A model generated the notes under the pieces. That model worked only from the letters and a program-made list of their open reading frames with translations. It did no database searches and was not told where the DNA came from. Made by a program: the position numbers and the translations under genes. From Anseongella ginsenosidimutans (GTDB lineage: Bacteria; Bacteroidota; Bacteroidia; Sphingobacteriales; Sphingobacteriaceae): a DNA stretch of 64,000 nt. The number at the start of each line of letters is the position of its first letter. Within the stretch, counting starts at the first letter, position 1. The stretch covers positions 2,604,001 through 2,668,000 of the forward strand of contig NZ_CP042432.1 of the NCBI RefSeq assembly GCF_008033235.1. Direction: 5' to 3'. This document shows, piece by piece, positions 24,294 to 41,847 of the stretch.

Positions 24294-24323
24294 AAAAAAG
24301 CCCCCTGATTATGGACAAGAGGC
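24294..24323 (-). terminator. Rho-independent terminator of tracrRNA
   Basis: On the minus strand GCCTC pairs with GGGGC of the run at 24300-24305 (one G-T pair) and is followed by six T. It begins 3 bp past the stop of the convergent HsdR_N gene. Confidence 0.8.
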
Positions 24324-24395
24324 GATCCAAATGTTTACACAACGGAATAAAATCCTTATTGTGACTTGCTTTCGAACGCAAGGTAAAAAAAATCC
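24294..24395 (-). ncRNA. tracrRNA for the type II-C Cas9
   Basis: Read on the minus strand, GAAAGCAAGTCACAA (24359-24373) is complementary to the 5' part of the repeat in its GTTGTGATTTGC orientation, with one G-U wobble over 15 nt. It is followed by AAGGATTTTATTCCGTT, a nexus-like hairpin seen in Bacteroidota tracrRNAs, a single-stranded stretch, and a terminator ending in U6. The 5' end is uncertain; a start near 24395 would follow a TAATTTTTG box inside the upstream hairpin. The gene lies in the 331-bp gap between the HsdR_N gene and cas9 and is divergent from cas9. Confidence 0.85.
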
Positions 24396-24422
24396 TGCAA
24401 TAGCAAAAATTATTGCAGGATT
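24385..24422 (-). terminator. Strong hairpin plus T8 upstream of tracrRNA anti-repeat
   Basis: On the minus strand AATCCTGCAATA and TATTGCAGGATT form a perfect 12-bp stem with an 8-nt loop followed by eight T. Its form is that of an intrinsic terminator for a minus-strand RNA starting nearer cas9. It would end such an RNA just before the anti-repeat unless transcription reads through. Confidence 0.65.
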
Positions 24423-24436
24423 AAGCAAGTCACAAC
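24423..24436 (-). other. Solitary CRISPR-repeat-like segment
   Basis: The minus strand reads GTTGTGACTTGCTT, matching the first 14 nt of the crRNA-sense repeat except for one T-to-C change. That change makes TTGTGACTTGC perfectly complementary to the tracrRNA anti-repeat GCAAGTCACAA. No second repeat copy flanks it. The sequence 5' of it (24437 upward) occupies the place of a spacer. Confidence 0.7.
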
Positions 24437-24576
24437 TCATGCCACTACCACACTATACACAGCATGTACTGTAATTTCCTTAAAATGAAGACAAGCGAGA
24501 ACGCTAAATCGAAGGGTTGGGTCCCTTTTTTTAGTCAAGAAAGCTCGTACGCCAAGAGAATAAATGGGTAGTGGTA

Positions 24577-24603
24577 TTGCAAAATTAATTATTTATATCT
24601 TGA
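24577..24603 (+). promoter_or_regulatory. Candidate cas9 promoter
   Basis: TTG at 24577-24579 and TATCTTGA at 24596-24603 resemble the Bacteroidota -33 and -7 boxes, with a rather short 16-bp spacing. The predicted leader to the cas9 ATG is ~10-15 nt. Confidence 0.35.
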
Positions 24604-24621: not shown

Positions 24622-27600
24622 ATGAAGAAAAAATTAGGCTTAGATCTGGGAAGTAACTCTGTAGGTTGGGCGTTAGTGGAACAAGATTTTAAAAGTAAGG
24701 ACGGCCGAATTCTTGGAATGGGAAGTCGTATTATTCCAATGAGCCAGGATATATTAGGTGATTTTGATAAGGGAAACTCGGTTTCTCAGACAGCCGAGCG
24801 AACAGGTTATCGTGCAACCCGGAGATTGCGAGAGCGCTACTTGCTAAGACGGGAGAGACTCCATCGTGTTTTATATGTTTTAGGCTTTCTGCCTGAACAT
24901 TATGCGAAACAAATTGATTTTGAACGGCGTTTGGGGAAGTTTATTAAGGAAGCTGAGCCCAAACTTGCTTATAAGGTGGTTGAAGACAAGATTAAAGGGA
25001 AAAACGAGTATGAATTTGTCTTCATCGAATCTTTCAATGAAATGTTATCGGATTTTCGTGAGCATCAGCCTCAAATTCTGTTGAGTGAAGACGGTGAATC
25101 CCGGCTTGTTCCTTACGACTGGACTATTTATTATTTACGCAAGAAGGCGTTGACAAAAAAAATAAAAAAGGAGGAACTGGCATGGATCTTATTGAATTTC
25201 AATCAAAAAAGGGGTTATTATCAACTGCGTGGTGAGGAAGAAGAGGGAAATCCTAATAAGATGGTGGAGTTTTACTCATTAAAGGTAGTAGATGTCAACG
25301 CAGATGAAGGTCAAAAAGGCAGTTCAGAGATTTGGTATTCGCTAACTCTGGAAAATGGGTGGGTATACAGACGTTCGAGCAAAACGCCCCTGTCAAACTG
25401 GAAGGGCAAGGTTCGGGACTTTATTGTTACTACTGACCTGAACGATGATGGAACTGTAAAGACCGATAAAGAAAGTAATGAAAAGAGAAGTTTCCGCGCC
25501 CCGGGGGAAGACGATTGGACGTTGTTAAAGAAGAAAACGGAAAGGGATATTGAGCAGTCTGACAAAACAGTTGGAACCTACATCTATGATACGTTATTGC
25601 AAAACCCCAAACAGAAAATCAAGGGCAAGCTGGTCCGAACCATCGAACGCAAGTTTTATAAAAATGAGCTGAGACGCATTTTGCAAAAGCAAAAAGAGTT
25701 TCACCCAGAGCTTCGAAATGGGGATATTTATAATGACTGTGTACGCGAGTTATATAGAAACAATGATGCTCATCGGCTTTTGTTGAGCAAGAAGGATTTC
25801 GTGCATTTGCTTGTGGATGATATTATCTTCTACCAACGTCCGTTGCGCAGCCAAAAATTATCTATTGGTAACTGTACCTTGGAATATCGAAAGTATAAAG
25901 ACGCCAGCGGAGTGGAACATACTAAATACTTAAAAGCTATTCCCAAATCCCATCCGTATTATCAGGAGTTTCGTCTATGGCAGTGGCTGTGCAATCTTAG
26001 TATCTACAAAAGAGAAGATGACACAAATGTCACGCTTAAGTTTTTAACTAACACAAGCGATTACGCGAAGCTGTTTGATTTTCTGAATAATCGGAAGGAA
26101 GTTGATCAGAAGTCATTGCTAAAGTACTTCAAGTTGAATGAGAAAACACATCGATGGAATTTTGTAGAGGATAAGAAATACCCCTGCAATGACACCGGGT
26201 ATGAAATCCGAAGAAGATTTGCCAAAATTGAAACTCTCCCGGAGGGTTTTCTAAACCCTGATATAGAGAAAAAAATATGGCATATTATCTATTCTGTAAC
26301 TGATAAAAAAGAGTACGAAAAAGCTCTGAAATCCTTTGCTAATAAATATCAAGTAGATGAAATTCAATTTGTTGATGCGTTCAGGAAGGTTCCCCCCTTT
26401 AAAAGAGAGTATGGTGCTTATTCCGAGAAGGCGATTAAAAAATTGCTTCCATTGATGCGACTGGGAAAATATTGGTGCTGGGATGCCATTGATAAATGCT
26501 CGAGAGAAAGGATAGAAAAGATAATTACGGGCGAGTATGACGAGAATATTGATGACCGAATACGAGAGAAAGCCCGACATTTCCGAGATGAAAGCGATTT
26601 TCAGGGTTTACAGCACTGGCTGGCCCAATACGTTGCATACGGACGAGCCGCTATAACAGATAAATGGAATTCTGTAGATGATTTGGAGCAATACCTGGAA
26701 GACTTCAAACTGCACTCGCTTCGTAATCCGATTGTGGAGCAATTAATTATGGAAACGCTGCGGGTAGTAAAAGATATTTGGATTAAATATGGCAATGGGG
26801 TTAAAGATTTCTTTGACGAAATTCATATTGAGCTAGGCAGAGAAATGAAGAACACCAAGGATGAGAGAAAGAGAATTGCCAACCAGATAGCAGAAAATGA
26901 AAACACAAATCTTCGTATTAAAGCCATTTTGGCAGAAATGGTGAAGTATACTGAAATGGAGAACGTGCGTCCATATTCGCCAATGCAGCAGGAGATATTA
27001 AAAGTGTATGAAGACGGCGTACTTAATTCAGATATAGAGATCGACGAAGATATTTTGAAGATCAGCAAAATGGCACAGCCGTCATCAGCCGATTTGAGAA
27101 AGTATAAATTGTGGTTAGAGCAAAGGTATCGTTCGCCTTACACCGGGGCGATTATTCCATTGAATAAGTTGTTTACGCCTGAATATGAAATAGAACACAT
27201 TATCCCTCAAAGTCGCTATTTCGACGACAGCTTTAGCAATAAGGTGATTTGTGAAGCTGCTGTAAATACACTCAAGGACAATCAGCTTGGCTATGAGTTT
27301 GTTAGGCATCATCATGGAGAAAAGGTGCAGATTGGTCACAAAACGGTTCAGGTATTTGAAATAACTGAATATGAAGATTTTATCAAACGACATTATGCAA
27401 AAAGTCGCAGCAAGCGCAATAAGCTTTTAATGGAGGACATCCCAGAGGATATGGTCAAAAGACAAATGAACGATACACGTTACATTAGTAAGTTTATTTC
27501 TTCGGTATTATCTAATTTAGTTCGTGCTGAAGCCAATGATGATGGTATTAATTCCAAGAACCTCATTCCCGTAAATGGAAAGATAACTAATCAACTGAAG

Positions 27601-29171
27601 CAGGATTGGGGGCTAAATGACGTGTGGAACGAATTGATTTTACTACGTTTCGAACGGATGAATCAATTGACTAATTCCAGCAATTTTACTGCATGGAGTA
27701 AAAATCACCAAAAATATCTGCCGACAGTTCCCCTGGAATTCTCAAAAGGCTTTTCTAAGAAGAGAATAGACCATCGCCACCACTCGATGGATGCTTTAGT
27801 TATAGCATGCACGACGAGGGATCACGTCAATTTGCTTAATAACAAGTACGCAAAGTCAAAGGAGCGGTTTGACTTAAGCCGGAAGCTCAGACTATTCGAA
27901 AGGGTGAATTATGTTGATCCTCGGACTGGCAGACGGGTTGAGCGGGAGGTGCCCAAAGATTTTATCAAGCCTTGGATTAACTTTACTTCCGAAGCAAAGA
28001 CCGCCATGGAAAATATTGTGGTTAGTTTCAAGCAGAATCTGCGTGTAATCAACAAGGCAACTAACCGTTATGAAAAATGGGTGGAGAGAGATGGCGTTAA
28101 AGTAAAAGAGGTGCGAGCGCAGAAAGGGGTGAATTGGGCGATCAGAAAGCCTTTACACAAAGATACGGTAGCCGGATTGGTTCTATTGAGAAGAAGAAAA
28201 ATCGTTTCACTTAACGCTGCATTGGAAACCGTGAATGAAATTGCCGATAGGGAACTGAGAAAAGAAATACAATCCATGCAGCTGAAGGGTCTGGATCGAA
28301 AGCAGATCACCAAGTATTTTAAAGATATCAAATATCAATGGAGAGGACAAGATATATCCAGACTAGAGATTTTCTATTGGGATAATGACAACGTAGCTTC
28401 GAGGGTCTCGCTCAACGACACATTCGATGAAAAACGCATCGGAACTATTACCGATACCGGTATTCAAAAAATTCTGCTTAATCATTTAGATAGCTGTAAA
28501 GGCCGTTTGGATGCAAGAGGCAAAGATATACCTGCTCCTCTCATTGCATTTTCCCCAGAAGGTATTGAAGAAATGAATAAGAATATTGTTTCACTCAATA
28601 ATGGTCGGCCGCATCAGCCTATTTTAAAAGTCCGCACTTACGAGCCAAAAGGCAATAAGTTCTATGTAGGACAAACGGGAAACAAGAGGGCAAAATATGT
28701 AGAAGCAGCCAAGGGGACAAATTTGTTTTTTGCTATTTATCAAGATCAGGTAGGAAAGAGGAAATATGAAACTATTCCACTTAATATAGTAATTGAACGT
28801 CAGAAGCAGGGGCTTGGATCTGTTCCATCGGAAAATGAGCAGGGAGATAAACTATTGTTTTATCTCTCACCCAATGACCTGGTATATGTGCCATCGGAGG
28901 AGGAGAAAGGAGATGCCGACAATGCAGATTTTGGCGATTTAAGCACCCCGCAGCTATATAATATTTATAAGGTGGTGAGCTTTACCGGGTACCAGATTTT
29001 TTTTGTTAAACATGATGTAGCTGCACCTATTGTAAATAAAGGCGAATTTTCTCCGTTGAACAAAATGGAGCGGGCTTGGGACGGAAGGATGATCAAAGAA
29101 CACTGTATAAAACTAAAAGTAGATAGATTAGGTGTCATTTCGCGATTCAATGCCTATATTGACATTACGGT

Positions 29172-29175
<4 letters not shown>
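24622..29175 (+). CDS. cas9: Cas9 endonuclease, type II-C
   Basis: RNA-guided double-strand DNA nuclease of CRISPR interference. RuvC-I is GLDLGSNSVGWALVE with D8. An Arg-rich bridge helix follows (RATRRLRERYLLRRERLHR). RuvC-II is EIHIELGREMKNT with E737. The HNH domain has EIEHIIPQ with H859, then N873 and N882 at the spacing of S. pyogenes N854/N863. RuvC-III is DHRHHSMDAL with H1054 and D1057. All catalytic residues are present, so it appears active. At 1517 aa it is at the large end for subtype II-C. Only cas1 and cas2 follow (no csn2 or cas4), which defines II-C. The stop overlaps the cas1 start (ATGA). Confidence 0.97.
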
Positions 29176-30418
<1,243 letters not shown>

Positions 30419-30524: not shown

Positions 30525-33500
30525 ACTGTGGTAAATCTCGTGATTCTGATAATTGAAAGCAAATCACAACGCCGGAAGGGCGCGAACTCTTTTGGTGCAG
30601 ACTGTGGTAAATCTCGTGATTCTGATAATTGAAAGCAAATCACAACGAAAAGGTATCCTAATCAGGACCTTGATAAACTGTGGTAAATCTCGTGATTCTG
30701 ATAATTGAAAGCAAATCACAACAGATACCGACCTATGGGAAAAAGAGTGGTTACTGTGGTAAATCTCGTGATTCTGATAATTGAAAGCAAATCACAACAA
30801 AAACAGGCGGGGATGGACATAGTTAAAGACTGTGGTAAATCTCGTGATTCTGATAATTGAAAGCAAATCACAACGATAGGATAATATAGACCGCAGCCCG
30901 TCAAACTGTGGTAAATCTCGTGATTCTGATAATTGAAAGCAAATCACAACAAGGGGCTGCCAGCAATGGTAGTCGCCGAAACTGTGGTAAATCTCGTGAT
31001 TCTGATAATTGAAAGCAAATCACAACTCCTCGGTCAAGGTAGCCCAGCTCAAAGGACTGTGGTAAATCTCGTGATTCTGATAATTGAAAGCAAATCACAA
31101 CGCAAAGAGTTTTGCGACCCTTCCGATGGCGACTGTGGTAAATCTCGTGATTCTGATAATTGAAAGCAAATCACAACCAAAATATGAAAACCGTAACCGG
31201 CAGTACGACTGTGGTAAATCTCGTGATTCTGATAATTGAAAGCAAATCACAACTTTAGGACGTCTGCGTGGCCGCTTATCTCTACTGTGGTAAATCTCGT
31301 GATTCTGATAATTGAAAGCAAATCACAACTCCTTTTGCAGAAGAAGTCACGAAAATCGTACTGTGGTAAATCTCGTGATTCTGATAATTGAAAGCAAATC
31401 ACAACCGCCCAAGAGGCGAAGATTGTAAAAGAGTAACTGTGGTAAATCTCGTGATTCTGATAATTGAAAGCAAATCACAACCGGATCAAATCCGAAGACC
31501 CGGACGAGGAAACTGTGGTAAATCTCGTGATTCTGATAATTGAAAGCAAATCACAACTAATTCATGCGCGGTAGTAGCATGCATTGTACTGTGGTAAATC
31601 TCGTGATTCTGATAATTGAAAGCAAATCACAACACTACGCTTGAACTCGCAAATGGGTCGTGGACTGTGGTAAATCTCGTGATTCTGATAATTGAAAGCA
31701 AATCACAACTTGAAAACCGAACATAAAAACAGCGATATGACTGTGGTAAATCTCGTGATTCTGATAATTGAAAGCAAATCACAACGATCGACAACTCGGA
31801 TCTACCTATGGTTCCACTGTGGTAAATCTCGTGATTCTGATAATTGAAAGCAAATCACAACTAGGAGAAAATAAAACATGGGCGGAATAGCACTGTGGTA
31901 AATCTCGTGATTCTGATAATTGAAAGCAAATCACAACCCCCGCTGGAAGGTATTCCGCAGGGCAAAGACTGTGGTAAATCTCGTGATTCTGATAATTGAA
32001 AGCAAATCACAACAAGTATAACGCAGTTCCGATCTCACTAGGTACTGTGGTAAATCTCGTGATTCTGATAATTGAAAGCAAATCACAACGGTATCGCTCT
32101 GTTCATCGTGTTTATTTTGACTGTGGTAAATCTCGTGATTCTGATAATTGAAAGCAAATCACAACTTCGCAGCCTGCGTTGAATGCTGACTTTATACTGT
32201 GGTAAATCTCGTGATTCTGATAATTGAAAGCAAATCACAACTGGCGGTAGCTTGTCTGCTAGTTATGTTATACTGTGGTAAATCTCGTGATTCTGATAAT
32301 TGAAAGCAAATCACAACCCGGAAGACAGTTTTTTCGGAAGCAGCGGCACTGTGGTAAATCTCGTGATTCTGATAATTGAAAGCAAATCACAACAGTTTTT
32401 GATTAAAGGCCCATCATTGTTTCACTGTGGTAAATCTCGTGATTCTGATAATTGAAAGCAAATCACAACTCCGCTGCACCGGGGTCGATCCGGCATATAA
32501 CTGTGGTAAATCTCGTGATTCTGATAATTGAAAGCAAATCACAACCCGGGGTCTGCCCGAACGCGTGACGAATCTACTGTGGTAAATCTCGTGATTCTGA
32601 TAATTGAAAGCAAATCACAACTACCCATTGTTTGCGAAATCCATAGGTTGGACTGTGGTAAATCTCGTGATTCTGATAATTGAAAGCAAATCACAACGGA
32701 AGAAGCAGCCGAAATATACGCAAGCGAACTGTGGTAAATCTCGTGATTCTGATAATTGAAAGCAAATCACAACTGTGTACGGCGAGATGTATGCATGAAG
32801 GCGACTGTGGTAAATCTCGTGATTCTGATAATTGAAAGCAAATCACAACAATTGAGAACAACGAAAACGTGCAGAAATGACTGTGGTAAATCTCGTGATT
32901 CTGATAATTGAAAGCAAATCACAACTGGTTTTTAAATTCCATTGCCGGGTTGCCCACTGTGGTAAATCTCGTGATTCTGATAATTGAAAGCAAATCACAA
33001 CTACCCATTGTTTGCGAAATCCATAGGTTGGACTGTGGTAAATCTCGTGATTCTGATAATTGAAAGCAAATCACAACGGAAGAAGCAGCCGAAATATACG
33101 CAAGCGAACTGTGGTAAATCTCGTGATTCTGATAATTGAAAGCAAATCACAACTGTGTACGGCGAGATGTATGCATGAAGGCGACTGTGGTAAATCTCGT
33201 GATTCTGATAATTGAAAGCAAATCACAACAATTGAGAACAACGAAAACGTGCAGAAATGACTGTGGTAAATCTCGTGATTCTGATAATTGAAAGCAAATC
33301 ACAACCAAAAATGCCGTTCGATGATAATATTTTCCACTGTGGTAAATCTCGTGATTCTGATAATTGAAAGCAAATCACAACAATACTTGTACGATGGCAA
33401 GTCCTTGATAGACTGTGGTAAATCTCGTGATTCTGATAATTGAAAGCAAATCACAACGGCAAAAGGATATTGAGATCAACGATATAAACTGTGGTAAATC

Positions 33501-34059
33501 TCGTGATTCTGATAATTGAAAGCAAATCACAACGGCAAAAGGATATTGAGATCAACGATATAAACTGTGGTAAATCTCGTGATTCTGATAATTGAAAGCA
33601 AATCACAACCGAGTATGGCTTCAGCTGTTTTTGGTGTTTACTGTGGTAAATCTCGTGATTCTGATAATTGAAAGCAAATCACAACGCAGCACTTGCGGAA
33701 ATTCTCCGTCATCATACTGTGGTAAATCTCGTGATTCTGATAATTGAAAGCAAATCACAACTGGGGATTCAATCGTTTTTAAAATGTTTGCACTGTGGTA
33801 AATCTCGTGATTCTGATAATTGAAAGCAAATCACAACACCGTCACGCCAATATTATCCCCGACAAAGACTGTGGTAAATCTCGTGATTCTGATAATTGAA
33901 AGCAAATCACAACCATAGTGGATATTCAGTTTGCCGGAGATAAACTGTGGTAAATCTCGTGATTCTGATAATTGAAAGCAAATCACAACTACGTTGCCGG
34001 ATGAAAACATGAATAAGATACTGTGATAAATTTCGTGATTCTGATAATTGAAAGCAAAT
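30525..34059 (-). CRISPR. CRISPR array, segment 1 (46 full repeats plus one cut repeat)
   Basis: The 46-bp repeat runs ACTGTGGTAAAT ... GCAAATCACAAC on the + strand, with spacers of 30 nt (one of 29) and a 76-bp period. Strand is given as minus because the tracrRNA pairs with the reverse complement. Repeats 1-46 appear identical. Repeat 47 (34020-34059) has two changes and is cut after GCAAAT by the IS21 element. A block of four spacers (32622-32879) recurs at 33002-33259, and the spacer at 33458-33487 recurs at 33534-33563. The apparent short open frames across the array are products of the repeat sequence. Confidence 0.98.
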
Positions 34060-34298
34060 TGGATAATCCGGACCATGCTGACCCCTTCAGAAGGGCCGGA
34101 ATTTCGGATGTGCGAGAGCGATTGCAGCTCGTATTCACATGCCAATCCGGCAGATGCTGACCCCTCTGGGGAGGTAATCCGGCCCATGCTGACCCCTGTT
34201 TAAGACGGAAGGCGGCAGAATCCGGAGCATACTGACCCCTTATTGAATGGGTTTTGGTTTCTTGAGTGATCATTTTTCAATAAAGAAGATCACTACTG

Positions 34299-35876
34299 AT
34301 GGCAGGAAAACCACGACCCATGAGTCAAGTAAAACAGCTTATACGTTTGCACCTGCAAGGCAATGGCAAGAAAACCATTGCCAGGGAGTTAGGCATCAGC
34401 AAAAACACGGTTAAGCAATATTTGGAAAAGGCAGCAGCCGACCCGCTTTCTATCAAGGAATTGCTTGAATTGGATGATCCGGTGCTGGAGGGCCGGTTTC
34501 ATGCGGGCAATCCGGCGTATAAAGATCTCCGTTTTGAAGATCTGAAACGCCGCTTACCCTACCTGGAAAAGGAATTGGAAAAGGTGGGGGTGAATAAAAT
34601 GCTGCTCTGGGAGGAATATAAACAGGCATACCCTGCAGGCTACGGGCGTACCCAGTTCTTCTTCCATTTCGCCCAGCTCTCCCGGGCCCGCAAACCCAGT
34701 GCAGTGCTCACTCATAAACCGGGTGATAAGCTCTATATTGATTTTTCAGGTAAAAAGGTGCATTACACCGACCGGGAAACCGGGGAGATGATCGTCTGCG
34801 AGCTATTTGTGGCCTGTTTGCCTTTTTCTGATTATGCTTTTTGTATCGCCGTCCCCAGCCAGCGCCTCAATGATTTCATTTATGCACTTATCCGCTGCCT
34901 GGAAGCACTCGGCGGGGCGGCACAGGCACTTGTGCCGGACAATATGAAAACGGCCGTCACCCGTGCCGATCGCTACGAACCGACCATCAATCAGACGCTC
35001 GAGGACCTGGCCAACCATTACCAGATGACGGTCGTGCCTGCCCGCCCCCGAAAACCAAAAGACAAGAGTTTGGCGGAGAATCAGGTGAAGCTGATCTATA
35101 CCCGGGTACTGGCCAAACTGCGCAACCGGCAGTTCTTCGATCTTGATTCGCTCAACACCGCCATTACCGAAAAAATCCGGGAGCATAACCAGACCCGCCG
35201 CCAGCAGAAGCCCTACACGCGGGAAGAAGAGTTCCTGGCGGCGGAAAAAGATCAGTTAACGCCGCTGCCCGATAAGCGTTTCGAGCTGAAATATTATGCC
35301 GAGCTCAAGGTAGCCCAAAACGGACACGTATACCTTGGGAGGGACAAACATTATTACAGTGTTCCCTACACCTATATCGGCAGCAAGGTAAAAGTGATTT
35401 ATACCCGCATGCTGGTACGCATCTATGCCCAGGGCAAACAGATTGCCTTGCATCAGCGAAATTATGCGCCGGGGAAATACACCTCGGTAAAAGAGCACCT
35501 GTGCTCCCAGCATCAGCATTACCATAACCGGAGTCCGGCGTATTATCTGGACCGGGCCAGACATACCTGCCGGGAATTATACGATCTCCTGGAAGCTCTG
35601 TTTGGACAGAACCGTTATCCCGAACAATTATACAACACCTGTGACGGGCTCTTCTCGCTGGCCCGCCGGAGCGACCCCGGCCGGTTTGCCCGGGCCTGTC
35701 AGATCGCGGCCGAGCATCGGGTATACTCCTATAAATTCGTGCAGAGCATCCTGGAAAACAACATGACTGAGCTTGAACAGGATCGTCCAATGGATCACCC
35801 CCTGCCCGGAGGGAGCAATGTCCGCGGTAAAGATTATTACCAGCAGCTCACCTTGACACTTAAAACACCATCATAA
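34299..35876 (+). CDS. istA: IS21-family transposase IstA
   Basis: 525 aa. The N-terminal helix-turn-helix is IRLHLQGNGKKTIARELGISKNTVKQYLEKA. The DDE integrase core has KLYIDFSGKKVHY, ALVPDNMKTAV and the glutamate in SLAENQVKLIY. The C-terminal Mu-type beta segment includes NGHVYLGRDKHYYSVPYTYIG. Intact. It is followed by istB after one nucleotide, the usual IS21 arrangement. Confidence 0.95.
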   Translation: MAGKPRPMSQVKQLIRLHLQGNGKKTIARELGISKNTVKQYLEKAAADPLSIKELLELDDPVLEGRFHAGNPAYKDLRFEDLKRRLPYLEKELEKVGVNKMLLWEEYKQAYPAGYGRTQFFFHFAQLSRARKPSAVLTHKPGDKLYIDFSGKKVHYTDRETGEMIVCELFVACLPFSDYAFCIAVPSQRLNDFIYALIRCLEALGGAAQALVPDNMKTAVTRADRYEPTINQTLEDLANHYQMTVVPARPRKPKDKSLAENQVKLIYTRVLAKLRNRQFFDLDSLNTAITEKIREHNQTRRQQKPYTREEEFLAAEKDQLTPLPDKRFELKYYAELKVAQNGHVYLGRDKHYYSVPYTYIGSKVKVIYTRMLVRIYAQGKQIALHQRNYAPGKYTSVKEHLCSQHQHYHNRSPAYYLDRARHTCRELYDLLEALFGQNRYPEQLYNTCDGLFSLARRSDPGRFARACQIAAEHRVYSYKFVQSILENNMTELEQDRPMDHPLPGGSNVRGKDYYQQLTLTLKTPS

Positions 35877-35877
35877 C

Positions 35878-36597
35878 ATGCAAGAACTACTTTCACAACT
35901 GAAAACGCTGCGCCTGAGTGGCATGAGCCGTAGCCTGGAGGCCATGACAGCCACCCGGCAGCATCAGGAGCTTACGCTCATAGAAGGACTGGCACTACTG
36001 CTGCAAGCCGAAGAGGAAGATCGTGACCACAAACGGTTTGACCGGCTGATCAAAAATGCCCGATTCCGCTACCAGGCTTCCATGGAAGAACTGCATATCG
36101 ATGCCGCGCGCGGTATTGATAAGACCCTGGTTACCGAACTGGCAAGTAATAACTACGTTTCCAAGGGAATGCCGGTATTGGTCGAAGGCGCGACCGGAAC
36201 CGGAAAAAGCTTTCTTATCTCTGCCCTGGGTCATCAGGCATGCGCAGGAGGGTACAAGGTGGCTTATTACAACCTGCAAAAGCTATTACTCAGGATCAAG
36301 CTCACGCGGCTGGACGGCAGTATTTACAAGTTCCTGGAGAAACTCTCCAGAACCGATCTGCTCATCCTGGACGACTTCGGTCTGGCGCACCTGGATCAGC
36401 AGCAACGGCTGGACCTGATGGAAATCATTGAAGATCGTCATGGAAAAACAGCCACCGTCATTGCCAGTCAACTACCCATTGCCAGTTGGTATGACGTAAT
36501 TGGCGATGACGTGATCGCGGACGGAATTCTCGATAGGTTAGTTCACAGCGCCTACAAAATCCAGCTTAAGGGAGACAGTCTAAGAAAAAAACGGTAA
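35878..36597 (+). CDS. istB: IS21-family helper ATPase IstB
   Basis: 239-aa AAA+ ATPase of the DnaC/IstB group: LKTLRLSGMSRSLEAM at the start, Walker A GATGTGKS, Walker B LLILDDFGLA, sensor motif ATVIASQLP. IstB assembles on DNA and recruits IstA to target sites. Intact, so this copy may still transpose. Confidence 0.95.
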   Translation: MQELLSQLKTLRLSGMSRSLEAMTATRQHQELTLIEGLALLLQAEEEDRDHKRFDRLIKNARFRYQASMEELHIDAARGIDKTLVTELASNNYVSKGMPVLVEGATGTGKSFLISALGHQACAGGYKVAYYNLQKLLLRIKLTRLDGSIYKFLEKLSRTDLLILDDFGLAHLDQQQRLDLMEIIEDRHGKTATVIASQLPIASWYDVIGDDVIADGILDRLVHSAYKIQLKGDSLRKKR

Positions 36598-36687
36598 TAT
36601 TGTCACACCATCAGCTCTGATGGAAACCAATCCCCTCAAGAGGGGTCAGTATGCCCGACACCGGGGTCAGCATTGACGGAATATCCA

Positions 36688-38400
36688 CAAATCACAACCC
36701 CCTGCCTCTTGGGGTATGTGAGGGGGATACTGTGGTAAATCTCGTGATTCTGATAATTGAAAGCAAATCACAACCTGGACAAATTGGCGGACGAAGACAA
36801 AGAAACTGTGGTAAATCTCGTGATTCTGATAATTGAAAGCAAATCACAACGGAAGGCGAGTAAGCTTTCCAGGCCATTCAACTGTGGTAAATCTCGTGAT
36901 TCTGATAATTGAAAGCAAATCACAACAGCAGGAAATAGGCGCCGGGATTAACTTCTACTGTGGTAAATCTCGTGATTCTGATAATTGAAAGCAAATCACA
37001 ACGGCGGTTTTTAAGTGCTTCCGCCGCCTTGTACTGTGGTAAATCTCGTGATTCTGATAATTGAAAGCAAATCACAACAAAACTACGTTTACCGGGGCGT
37101 ATGCTTATACTGTGGTAAATCTCGTGATTCTGATAATTGAAAGCAAATCACAACGGATAATAGTTTGGAAGATGAAGGGCAAAAACTGTGGTAAATCTCG
37201 TGATTCTGATAATTGAAAGCAAATCACAACGGTAATTAGCGTCGACATGTTCTTCGCTGGACTGTGGTAAATCTCGTGATTCTGATAATTGAAAGCAAAT
37301 CACAACGTGGATATGCGACGTTGGAAGAGTTAGGGGACTGTGGTAAATCTCGTGATTCTGATAATTGAAAGCAAATCACAACAAAAAGTGTGGGAATCCC
37401 TTCAAAAGACGGAACTGTGGTAAATCTCGTGATTCTGATAATTGAAAGCAAATCACAACATACCCCGACAAATCGGGAGGAACTACATCACTGTGGTAAA
37501 TCTCGTGATTCTGATAATTGAAAGCAAATCACAACAGCTTCCGGCAGTAGTAACTACATGCCCACACTGTGGTAAATCTCGTGATTCTGATAATTGAAAG
37601 CAAATCACAACTTTCGGCTTTGCCTCCGGGGCGGTTGTGCTACTGTGGTAAATCTCGTGATTCTGATAATTGAAAGCAAATCACAACGATGCGCCGGCAA
37701 CGACCCGGCTTTGTGAGACTGTGGTAAATCTCGTGATTCTGATAATTGAAAGCAAATCACAACATTGATAATTATCTTAAAGAGTATGAGTAAACTGTGG
37801 TAAATCTCGTGATTCTGATAATTGAAAGCAAATCACAACACGTGAGTAAATATCGGGAAGCTGATGACTACTGTGGTAAATCTCGTGATTCTGATAATTG
37901 AAAGCAAATCACAACCCAATCCTACCCGATCTCCTTTGTTGAAAGACTGTGGTAAATCTCGTGATTCTGATAATTGAAAGCAAATCACAACAGGATGTAC
38001 CATATATACAGATTTCCTTGCACTGTGGTAAATCTCGTGATTCTGATAATTGAAAGCAAATCACAACGGGATCCCGCTCCAAGGCAGAGTAGTATTTACT
38101 GTGGTAAATCTCGTGATTCTGATAATTGAAAGCAAATCACAACAGAGATAAGATCAAGCAGGGAGATATTGCAACTGTGGTAAATCTCGTGATTCTGATA
38201 ATTGAAAGCAAATCACAACGTGTGATCGCCTATAAGCACTACTTCCTAAACTGTGGTAAATCTCGTGATTCTGATAATTGAAAGCAAATCACAACCCGGT
38301 ATCGCCTGCCCTTGTTTAATTCTAGACTGTGGTAAATCTCGTGATTCTGATAATTGAAAGCAAATCACAACATCACATCAGAACTACCAGTGATTAACAT
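36688..38400 (-). CRISPR. CRISPR array, segment 2 (22 full repeats)
   Basis: Begins with the remaining 3' part of the cut repeat (target duplication plus CACAAC), one spacer (36699-36728), then 22 full repeats from 36729 to 38371. The last spacer is cut at 38400 by the IS3 element. Spacers are 30 nt except one of 31 nt (37383-37413). The spacer at 38144-38173 is found again in segment 3. Confidence 0.97.
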
Positions 38401-38579
38401 TGAGATACTCCCCATTTTCAGGACCAATTTCTCTAAATCTTAATTGAATTTATAGTCATTTGTTGTTGTAGCGGTGTGGGGTTGTGGTAAACTCGGAGAG
38501 TTTTCCACAAATCCACGCCTTTTTTCTCTTTTGGTTCTTTTCTCTTTTTTGCCCATGATCTCCCATTTGTGGATAACTC

Positions 38580-39395
38580 TCATGCTGCTTTGCCCGTCAG
38601 GTACAAACTGGCTGGTTTTCTTCGTCCGATCCCTTGATGGGATTTATAAAAGTTATAACGGTGGAAAAAGGCACGAAGTCCTTGTTCCAGTTCCCATCCG
38701 TCCAGCGCCGGGTTCAGGTACACGTATTCGTACTTTACCGTACGCCACAGCCGCTCAATGAACACGTTGTCAATCGCTCTTCCTTTGCCGTCCATGCTGA
38801 TCTTGATGCCCAGCTGCGGAAGAAGCGATATCCATTCCCGGCAGGTAAACTGGCTGCCTTGATCGGAATTAACGATCTCCGGTTTTCCGTGCCGCTTCAC
38901 CGCTTCTTTTACCAGTGAACAGACCCACTCGGAGGTCATGCTGTTGGAAAGGCTCCAGGCCACCACAAAGCGGCTATGCAGGTCAATAATGGCGGCCAGG
39001 TACATGAACCCCTTTTTCATTGGGATGTACGTTATATCCACAGCCCACACCTGATTAGGGCGTTCGATCTTCAGGTTCCGAAGCAGGTAGGGCCGGATGT
39101 ATTCGGCCTTGCCCAATTTGGTCAGTATACGCCGGGGATATTGCGCCCGGATGCCCATCTTGCGCATTAACCGCCGGATCCGCTTGTGATTCACCTGGAG
39201 GCCCTCATCCCGAAAGTAATCCTGCAATTGCAGCACGCCTTCGGTCGGGTATTGCAAATGACGCTCATCCATCCTCCGCATCAGCGCAAGGTTTTTTTCT
39301 CCTTCTCCGACCGGGGTGTAATAAATTCCGCTGCGGTGAAGTTCCAGCAACTCACACTGCCGGCGCACGCTCAATCGATGGGAAGGTGTGATCAT
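38580..39395 (-). CDS. IS3-family transposase OrfB (DDE integrase)
   Basis: 271 aa. An HTH_21-like region (YPTEGVLQLQDYF, INHKRIRRLMRKMGI-type) precedes the rve integrase core with D in VWAVDITYIP, D in VNSDQGSQFT and E in IERLWRTVKYEYV. Its frame is open upstream through the A8 run at the end of orfA, so an OrfAB fusion by -1 slippage is possible. The stand-alone ATG is at 39395. Confidence 0.93.
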   Translation of the reverse strand: MITPSHRLSVRRQCELLELHRSGIYYTPVGEGEKNLALMRRMDERHLQYPTEGVLQLQDYFRDEGLQVNHKRIRRLMRKMGIRAQYPRRILTKLGKAEYIRPYLLRNLKIERPNQVWAVDITYIPMKKGFMYLAAIIDLHSRFVVAWSLSNSMTSEWVCSLVKEAVKRHGKPEIVNSDQGSQFTCREWISLLPQLGIKISMDGKGRAIDNVFIERLWRTVKYEYVYLNPALDGWELEQGLRAFFHRYNFYKSHQGIGRRKPASLYLTGKAA

Positions 39396-39409
39396 CGCTC
39401 TACGATCGG

Positions 39410-39700
39410 TTAATGGAGCTTTTTCAAGCTTTTTTTTAAAAAGTCATTTTCCAGCTCCAGTTGGCCGATCTTAGCATACAGCCGGTCGGGATCCACCTGT
39501 TCTTCTTGATCCGCCTCTTTGTCAAACACGTGAGCGGACTTTTCCAGAAACTCCTGTTTCCACTTGCTGATCATTACCGCGTGAACTTCGAACCGCTGAG
39601 CCAATTCTGCCAGCGTTTCCTTTTCCTTCAGCGCTTCCAGCGCCACTTTGGCCTTGAAGGCCGAACTGAATTTTCTACGTTTTCCTTTCATTGTTACCAC
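39410..39700 (-). CDS. IS3-family OrfA (helix-turn-helix)
   Basis: 96 aa: KRRKFSSAFKAKVALEALKE, TLAELAQRFEVHAVMISKWK, then a leucine-zipper-like end (LYAKIGQLELENDFLKK). It binds the element ends and forms the N-terminal part of the fused transposase. An in-frame ATG 9 bp downstream (MKGKRRKF) is an equally good start. Confidence 0.92.
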   Translation of the reverse strand: MVTMKGKRRKFSSAFKAKVALEALKEKETLAELAQRFEVHAVMISKWKQEFLEKSAHVFDKEADQEEQVDPDRLYAKIGQLELENDFLKKSLKKLH

Positions 39701-39759
39701 GAAGTTAGTTACTTATTTTTTTAACTTAACCAGTGGTCCTGATTTTGGGGAGTATTACA

Positions 39760-41847
39760 CATTACTGTGGTAAATCTCGTGATTCTGATAATTGAAAGCA
39801 AATCACAACGTGAGCAAAGTACGGCTCTTTAGTACAGTCACTGTGGTAAATCTCGTGATTCTGATAATTGAAAGCAAATCACAACACTAAATGGCAAACC
39901 CGGACTTAACTGGATACTGTGGTAAATCTCGTGATTCTGATAATTGAAAGCAAATCACAACACTCCCCAACGGGCGCAGACACTTCAATATACTGTGGTA
40001 AATCTCGTGATTCTGATAATTGAAAGCAAATCACAACAGAGATAAGATCAAGCAGGGAGATATTGCAACTGTGGTAAATCTCGTGATTCTGATAATTGAA
40101 AGCAAATCACAACTAGATTTTTAAATGAAGTCGCTATCTGATCACTGTGGTAAATCTCGTGATTCTGATAATTGAAAGCAAATCACAACCAAGATCGGAG
40201 GGCTTTGGGCTTTCTGAAACTGTGGTAAATCTCGTGATTCTGATAATTGAAAGCAAATCACAACTGGTGCTTGGGATTTCCGCTATTACCACGACTGTGG
40301 TAAATCTCGTGATTCTGATAATTGAAAGCAAATCACAACCCATCCGTCAACGATTCCCTAAGCCCTGGAACTGTGGTAAATCTCGTGATTCTGATAATTG
40401 AAAGCAAATCACAACCAGGGGCAGTACGTTGTTTTTGTGGATGATACTGTGGTAAATCTCGTGATTCTGATAATTGAAAGCAAATCACAACGTGGCGAAG
40501 GTGTGTACAATAGGCTGGCACACTGTGGTAAATCTCGTGATTCTGATAATTGAAAGCAAATCACAACTTGCCGATTACGGCGCAGGCGAATACAGGGACT
40601 GTGGTAAATCTCGTGATTCTGATAATTGAAAGCAAATCACAACTACCCATTGTTTGCGAAATTCATGGGTTGGACTGTGGTAAATCTCGTGATTCTGATA
40701 ATTGAAAGCAAATCACAACTACCCATTGTTTGCGAAATTCATGGGTTGGACTGTGGTAAATCTCGTGATTCTGATAATTGAAAGCAAATCACAACGTCAA
40801 GGGTATATGAAATGTAATTCCCCGCACTGTGGTAAATCTCGTGATTCTGATAATTGAAAGCAAATCACAACGGCGGGGTTAACCATACGTCCGTTTCCAT
40901 CACTGTGGTAAATCTCGTGATTCTGATAATTGAAAGCAAATCACAACATGGAACCACTGTACTCTACTACTATACCTACTGTGGTAAATCTCGTGATTCT
41001 GATAATTGAAAGCAAATCACAACATCTGGCCGGGCTGAACAGCGTTTGCCTACACTGTGGTAAATCTCGTGATTCTGATAATTGAAAGCAAATCACAACA
41101 GGACGACCTGGGGGACGACAGCGTTGCCGACTGTGGTAAATCTCGTGATTCTGATAATTGAAAGCAAATCACAACGTAAGGCAATAGCTGAAACAAAATA
41201 CCAGAACTGTGGTAAATCTCGTGATTCTGATAATTGAAAGCAAATCACAACCCTACGCAGGAAGGCATTGCGTATATAAATACTGTGGTAAATCTCGTGA
41301 TTCTGATAATTGAAAGCAAATCACAACCCTACGCAGGAAGGCATTGCGTATATAAATACTGTGGTAAATCTCGTGATTCTGATAATTGAAAGCAAATCAC
41401 AACATTTTCGGTTAAATCTCTGTTGGGGGGGGACTGTGGTAAATCTCGTGATTCTGATAATTGAAAGCAAATCACAACCGGGAATGTCGCGAAGTGAGCC
41501 TCTTTAAAACTGTGGTAAATCTCGTGATTCTGATAATTGAAAGCAAATCACAACTCGTCAGATGGGATAATTACCTCTGAAATCACTGTGGTAAATCTCG
41601 TCATTCTGAAAATTGAAAGCAAATCACAACGAACTGAACAACATCAAGGATCACCGTGGTTTATCTCATGATTCCAAAATTTGAGAGCAATTCACAACTT
41701 TTGCAGGCGCTGAACCTTCAGATCGATGACTGTGGTAAATATCGTGATTCTGGAAATGGAGGCAAATCACAACGCCGGGAATTGGAGCGGATATGAAAGC
41801 TGACTACACTAAGTTTCGTGATTTGGTAATTGAGGACAAATCACACG
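39760..41847 (-). CRISPR. CRISPR array, segment 3 (24 good plus 4 decaying repeats)
   Basis: Repeats start at 39764 and stay near perfect to 41509. Then follow four increasingly degenerate copies at 41585, 41653, 41729 and 41803-41847, the last barely recognisable. This marks the old, non-acquiring end of the array. Three spacers are 29 nt; the spacer before repeat 41653 is only 22 nt. Adjacent identical spacer pairs occur at 40644/40720 and 41252/41328. The 40038-40067 spacer repeats one in segment 2. The ~175 bp to the next gene are AT-rich with no clear feature. Confidence 0.97.

Follow-up and report, generated by a model that had tools for sequence, protein, structure and literature searches.

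Between the divergent cas9 and tracrRNA genes of Anseongella ginsenosidimutans lies a short copy of the start of the CRISPR repeat, which raises the question of what kind of RNA it belongs to and what such an RNA would do beside cas9. An earlier note made from the sequence alone had offered two options, namely a long transcript that folds as guide, repeat, linker and tracrRNA, or a free crRNA-like RNA that ends at a terminator between the copy and the tracrRNA. The window considered here is the whole 64,000-nucleotide stretch of DNA that was analysed. Its CRISPR-Cas locus is of type II-C, its Cas9 is intact, and its features are as follows, in window coordinates.

24300 to 24377, minus strand: tracrRNA, with a presumed start; its own terminator (24323-24300) forms the 3' end
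24354 to 24373, minus strand: anti-repeat region of the tracrRNA, in which a rare A-to-G change provides the partner for the C of the solitary copy
24378 to 24385, minus strand: predicted tracrRNA -7 element, TACCTTGC, at the position that TAnnTTTG takes in relatives
24383 to 24422, minus strand: intrinsic terminator of the solitary RNA, a 12-bp stem (24391-24422) and a T-run
24423 to 24436, minus strand: solitary copy of the CRISPR repeat start, GTTGTGACTTGCTT, with one T-to-C change relative to the array repeat
24437 to 24466, minus strand: guide-like segment, CATGCTGTGTATAGTGTGGTAGTGGCATGA, directly 5' of the copy, its length taken from II-C crRNA anatomy
24567 to 24579, plus strand: putative target site in the cas9 promoter, GGTAGTGGTATTG, with a weak guide match (10/13, p about 0.04)
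from 24580, plus strand: would-be PAM of the putative site, CAAAATTA
24580 to 24587, minus strand: predicted Bacteroidota -7 element of the solitary RNA, TAATTTTG, 151 nt upstream of the copy, by consensus match only
24596 to 24603, plus strand: predicted cas9 -7 element, TATCTTGA, by consensus match
24622 to 29175, plus strand: cas9 (1517 aa, type II-C; RuvC, HNH and bridge helix domains)
29172 to 30074, plus strand: cas1
30071 to 30418, plus strand: cas2
30525 to 41774, minus strand: CRISPR arrays with 46-nt repeats and 30-nt spacers, broken into three by insertions

The plus strand also has a terminator-like hairpin (24511-24533); it lies between the cas9 promoter and the solitary gene and has no obvious transcript to terminate. 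Rfam searches of the whole window and of the cas9-tracrRNA gap gave nothing above threshold, and one match with an E value of 0.2 was taken as chance.

The array repeat (GTTGTGATTTGCTTTCAATTATCAGAATCACGAGATTTACCACAGT, 46 nt) starts with GTTGTGATTTGCTT and occurs in 92 perfect copies. Across the whole 4.32-Mb genome, the segment at 24436-24423 is the sole repeat copy outside the arrays, and a search for the repeat start that allowed one mismatch hit nothing but the arrays, the solitary copy and the anti-repeat itself (control 1+1). Because the copy is thus unique beyond the arrays, the anti-repeat aside, it is not a chance occurrence, and the repeat-start copy proposed earlier is real. With the anti-repeat (24359-24371) it forms a 13-bp perfect inverted repeat whose arms lie 51 nt apart, and it abuts the 12-bp hairpin, which is followed by a run of eight Ts, two of them within the stem, just as the linker had been described. 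It is the window's anti-repeat, through its A-to-G change, that departs from the near-invariant tracrRNA of relatives, a point the earlier note had not made. The window's array repeat pairs with this changed anti-repeat through a G-U wobble, whereas the solitary copy supplies a Watson-Crick C, so the suggestion that the T-to-C change restores pairing holds (-20.7 kcal/mol for the 14-mer duplex, versus -18.4 for the first 14 nt of the array repeat). The broader statement that the copy fits the tracrRNA better than the array does is correct for these 14 nt but fails over 19 nt, where the array repeat reaches -23.4 and the solitary copy -21.4.

A second such pair was found in a related locus, L174, where the anti-repeat (AATCGCAA) and the solitary copy (GTTGCGATT, containing GTTGCGA) are matched at a position other than that in the window; the array repeat of that genome, located on another contig, is GTTGTGATT. 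At the level of sequence, copy and anti-repeat have thus undergone compensatory change twice independently, each time at a different position. This covariation, which had been put forward as a check, extends to the window and L174 but not to the solitary copies of L182, L180 and L137. Each of these has one mismatch to its anti-repeat and therefore pairs more weakly, at about -12 kcal/mol over 14 nt compared with -17 to -21.

Whether the copy is transcribed with or apart from the tracrRNA depends on where promoters and terminators lie. In about 60 relatives the tracrRNA is near-invariant (TCACAATAAGGATTATTCCGTTGTGAAAACAT), and the promoter-like element TAnnTTTG mostly resides a short way upstream of the anti-repeat. 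A promoter matrix derived from 50 of these elements and then run on the window finds TACCTTGC at 24385-24378, immediately behind the T-run, as the tracrRNA promoter element, and a second element, TAATTTTG, at 24587-24580. The order on the minus strand is therefore a predicted promoter, leader, guide-like segment, repeat copy and terminator, followed by the predicted tracrRNA promoter and the tracrRNA. Since a terminator follows the copy and the tracrRNA appears to have its own promoter behind it, the best reading is that the element is a stand-alone crRNA-like gene rather than a fused guide-tracrRNA. Two observations on this region stand apart. In a stretch that is near-invariant among relatives, the window's tracrRNA (24300-24377) has 2 inserted nt (GGATTTTATTCC) and T in place of A at one position. 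In addition, a TACGG-N4-5-CCGTA palindrome occurs 57-69 nt upstream of CACAATAAGG in 19/109 tracr loci (0.1 expected in shuffles), including L005, L006, L009, L017, L032, L181 and L185, the last being the only one among the solitary-RNA loci; it is likely the operator of a regulator at the tracrRNA promoter.

Cas9 relatives were collected from whole genomes and named contigs, and tracr loci by a class-wide search and direct fetching. A strict search pattern that combined copy and anti-repeat identified only the window among 395 genomes of the class, because the copies of relatives sit further off or precede other sequence; this search was superseded by reading 113 Bacteroidota II-C tracr loci, which were scanned for solitary copies with the repeat alone as criterion. 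The scan revealed same-strand copies between cas9 and tracrRNA in L184, L185, L174, L176 and L182, as well as in the window, which belongs to the family Sphingobacteriaceae, as does Mucilaginibacter arboris (L003 and L038, one locus). The copy of L180, a homologue of L182, was recognised on reading the sequences, so that a solitary copy sits between divergent cas9 and tracrRNA in six loci besides the window; L137, from another family, is a later and weaker addition. Most loci have no repeat copy, and their anti-repeat is separated from the cas9 start by about 40-170 nt; the gap that holds the element measures 255-1290 nt versus a median of 103 over all loci. A clear terminator immediately follows the copy in L184 and L185, and in the window, L185, L176, L182 and L180 a promoter-like TAnnTTTG precedes the copy by 133-153 nt.

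Several of these loci show rearrangements of their own. Between the solitary gene and the tracrRNA, L184 (tracr offsets -200 to -100) retains a short piece of a second cas9 N-terminus (MIKRILGLDLGTNNVG...), and L185 (-200 to -115) another (MKTILGLDLGTNSVG...), as if cas9 had been replaced beside an old tracrRNA. In L174 and L176, a gene that by eye resembles DUF3800 (MKYSLYIDESGDHGL...) is inserted at the same place; the sequences that flank guide and copy on their 5' and 3' sides also look complementary, and the terminator stem of these loci may enclose the guide.

The relatives suggest what such a gene would be for. In 6/6 of them, the copy is immediately preceded on its 5' side by 8-10 nt that are repeated on the cas9 strand of the cas9 promoter; they stand there in exact guide register, the guide's 3' end being turned towards the PAM side of the site. 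The guides and their sites, all on the cas9 strand, are listed below with p values from shuffled guides.

L184: guide AGATTATAGT, site GAGTTTTTAT (p 0.002)
L185: guide CTTACTGA, sites AGATTTTTTT and CAGTTTTTTA (p 0.018; both sites 0.0005)
L174: guide CTTATTGA, sites TAGTTTTATA and TAGTTTTGTA (p 0.071; both sites 0.02)
L176: guide AGATTAGTAG, site GAATTTTTTA (p 0.001)
L182: guide GTAGTGTGA, site GAGAGTGTTA (p 0.0035)
L180, the homologue of L182: guide GTAGTGTGA, site GAAAGATTTA (p 0.004)

Fisher combination over five loci, with L180 set aside, gives about 2e-7. A contiguous seed of 8-10 nt to the cas9 promoter is present in five of the six loci found by their repeat, all but the window. L184, L185 and L174 have two sites apiece, although the second in L184, which possibly belongs to a hairpin of the RNA itself, was not treated as independent; a further copy in L174, at -65, has no seed match and was also left out of the counts. 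Guide and site change together between related loci (L184 versus L185; L174 versus L176), and the sites lie within about 30 nt of the predicted cas9 -7 element. All six sites of L184, L185, L174 and L176, whose Cas9 proteins form one clade, carry TTTT at PAM positions 4-7, a motif expected at 2-5% of positions in those regions. Judged from these sequences, recurrent Cas9 autorepression by a tracrRNA-dependent crRNA-like RNA appears well supported in the six relatives. Solitary copies on the opposite strand were observed in L038 (tracr offset -908), L144 (-337) and L164 (+104), where the guides match nearby sites over 10-11 nt; these suggest further forms of the design, and the guide of L164 perhaps serves another gene.

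In the window itself, the guide (...GGTAGTGGCATGA) matches GGTAGTGGTATTG (24567-24579) at 10/13 positions, with mismatches at positions 1, 2 and 5, which are those where Cas9 is least tolerant of them. The putative site is on the cas9 strand, 16 nt before the cas9 -7 element, a placement equivalent to that of the relatives' sites, and lacks the TTTT of the other Cas9 clade's sites. When both strands of the entire gap are considered, p is 0.036 for the 13-nt match, and there is no significant contiguous seed (p 0.22); a longest run of 16 nt (p 0) was discarded because there the guide had been matched with itself. By a 12-nt count, 24% of the array's own spacers score as well as the window guide; in the region upstream of the window's cas9, a 9-nt seed is found for 0/93 real array spacers and an 8-nt seed for 4/93. 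The stretch of the putative site could alternatively pair with the guide as an internal RNA stem. From its sequence and place, the cas9 promoter is the probable target of the window guide, and the genome yielded no better or convincing target elsewhere. Two possible origins of this segment were set aside: descent of 24437-24579 from a mobile element, as a DNA search of the genome gave no second copy, and descent from a former array unit, for which an ACAGT 31 nt upstream of the copy resembles the repeat end, as neither a guide-like spacer nor a full repeat could be aligned.

We infer the following mechanism. A promoter near 24587 would drive a minus-strand leader, the guide-like segment and the 14-nt repeat up to the terminator, yielding a small crRNA-like RNA. 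Its repeat copy would pair with the tracrRNA, and the pair would load into Cas9, which would then bind the cas9 promoter but, given how short the guide match is, not cut it, and would reduce transcription of cas9-cas1-cas2. Ordinary crRNAs would vie with the solitary RNA for tracrRNA and Cas9, so that repression would ease at high crRNA levels. We consider it fairly likely that, in II-C loci of Bacteroidota, autorepression by a separate tracrRNA-dependent crRNA-like RNA with 8-10 nt seeds and a cognate PAM arose repeatedly, as a two-RNA type II counterpart of tracr-L and CreR of which the window is a member. With slightly less assurance, and by kinship of anatomy, we regard cas9 autorepression as the most likely function of the window's own element.

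The main rival is a decayed autorepressor, in which guide and site have drifted apart while the repeat copy, terminator and promoters remain. The imperfect guide match with its seed mismatches would be expected of such a relic, as would a tracrRNA that deviates at several near-invariant positions; however, the copy has remained a perfect partner of the altered anti-repeat, a sign that pairing has been maintained, and an intact Cas9 and 92 identical repeats also speak against decay, which we judge unlikely. Less probable still is a scaRNA-like RNA whose guide, with tracrRNA and Cas9, would act on another host gene. The guide, diverged repeat, terminator and adjoining tracrRNA are parts that scaRNA shares, but only three other 10-nt seed matches occur genome-wide, none of them intergenic, as two fall in copies of a single IS gene and the third within a different reading frame; moreover, the 16-nt guide has no other genomic match within 2 mismatches, and reversed-pattern controls match more often than the guide. 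We give equally little credence to the copy being a decoy for the tracrRNA, or an inverted duplicate of the anti-repeat that has no function and that template switching may have perfected: either would explain a 13-bp perfect inverted repeat and a copy of just 14 nt, but the first G of the copy agrees with the repeat and not with the complement of the anti-repeat, and the copies of relatives are preceded by guides that fit the cas9 promoter. Least probable is the fused option, a natural single guide made by reading through the hairpin, which folds well (24296-24462, z -4.4, copy paired with anti-repeat) but would have to pass a 12-bp stem and T-run within its linker although the tracrRNA keeps its own promoter, and which the up to 950 nt and a gene between copy and tracrRNA in relatives show not to be the common design.

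Thus, of the two options first offered, a free crRNA-like RNA ended at the terminator is favoured by the separate tracrRNA promoter and by the same layout in relatives. In type II-A of Streptococcus pyogenes, tracr-L enables Cas9 to repress cas genes through a guide match of about 9 bp to the cas promoter (Workman 2021; PMC8730458, PMC11417352). The comparison with tracr-L remains apt in function, as the relatives' guides match the cas9 promoter, but not in the fused design. Like tracr-L, the elements of the relatives have a short guide match to the cas promoter and are encoded together with the tracrRNA; tracr-L is one fused RNA of type II-A, whereas here guide plus repeat form a gene of their own, set apart from that of the tracrRNA by a terminator, in II-C of Bacteroidota. 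Binding without cutting is established for short guide matches of tracr-L and scaRNA (PMC8730458), and the 8-10 nt matches of the relatives would fit the same behaviour.

CreR regulators are crRNA-like RNAs of types I and V-A that use an ectopic repeat, direct the effector to its own cas promoter and compete with crRNAs (PMC12737573). The window likewise has a stand-alone guide and ectopic repeat outside the arrays, a terminator and its own promoter (by consensus match only), with a guide that would address its own cas promoter, but it would require tracrRNA and Cas9. Because the locus is II-C and not type I or V-A, the element is better said to work like CreR than to be CreR. The scaRNA of Francisella novicida belongs to type II-B, with predictions for II-A and II-C systems of pathogens (PMC8730458, PMC6199352), and a II-C scaRNA of N. 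meningitidis acts on efeUOB post-transcriptionally (PMC13431127). As in scaRNA, a predicted separate RNA flanked by promoter and terminator has a diverged repeat that, by sequence, pairs with the tracrRNA; scaRNA targets are other genes (lipoprotein genes; efeUOB), whereas the site matched here is the cas9 promoter. Solitary repeat units and Racr RNAs are repeat mimics of phages and plasmids (PMC10651486). These too are repeat copies outside arrays behind a predicted promoter, but Racr RNAs are encoded by phages, plasmids or prophages, whereas the window's copy adjoins the host's own cas9 and tracrRNA, between the two, and has a guide-like part. The junction of copy and terminator had no match in IMG/VR, no phage match was found for the region of the solitary element, and no Cas9 was found on viral contigs.

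Our search of open-licence literature, which could miss subscription papers, turned up neither a Cas9 autorepressor for II-C systems of Bacteroidota nor CreR-like regulators for type II. If our reading is correct, streptococci are not alone in limiting Cas9 through partly matching guides; this would be a recurrent solution, reached with fused guides in II-A, crRNA-like guides in types I and V-A, and separate crRNA-like RNAs in II-C. The idea that crRNAs and a regulator contend for tracrRNA and Cas9 as a form of sensing would then become testable in type II. Natural guide-target pairs would also allow PAMs to be read for little-studied Bacteroidota Cas9s, one clade of which has TTTT at positions 4-7.

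The distribution of the element over a tree built from 99 Cas9 N-termini requires seven changes, at least five of which are forced by well-supported branches. The closest Cas9 relative of the window (78% identical over 411 N-terminal columns) is without the element, which occurs in more distant Cas9 lineages; therefore, repeated gain and loss, or transfer, must be invoked. The earlier note would have counted absence from relatives with the same cas9 against the element, and its absence from the nearest ones is indeed seen, but so is its presence in distant lineages.

The CRISPR arrays of the window show some further peculiarities. Insertions occupy 34070-36730 and 38400-39760, the first of which carries an IS21-like transposase gene and has a truncated repeat at its edge. 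A four-spacer block is present twice at 32622-33290, and the spacer GGCAAAAGGATATTGAGATC... is doubled nearby. Part of the array was searched for phage matches from which a PAM might be inferred, and none was found. Degenerate repeats at 41653-41774 mark the array end far from the cas genes, which points to acquisition of new spacers at the cas-proximal end.
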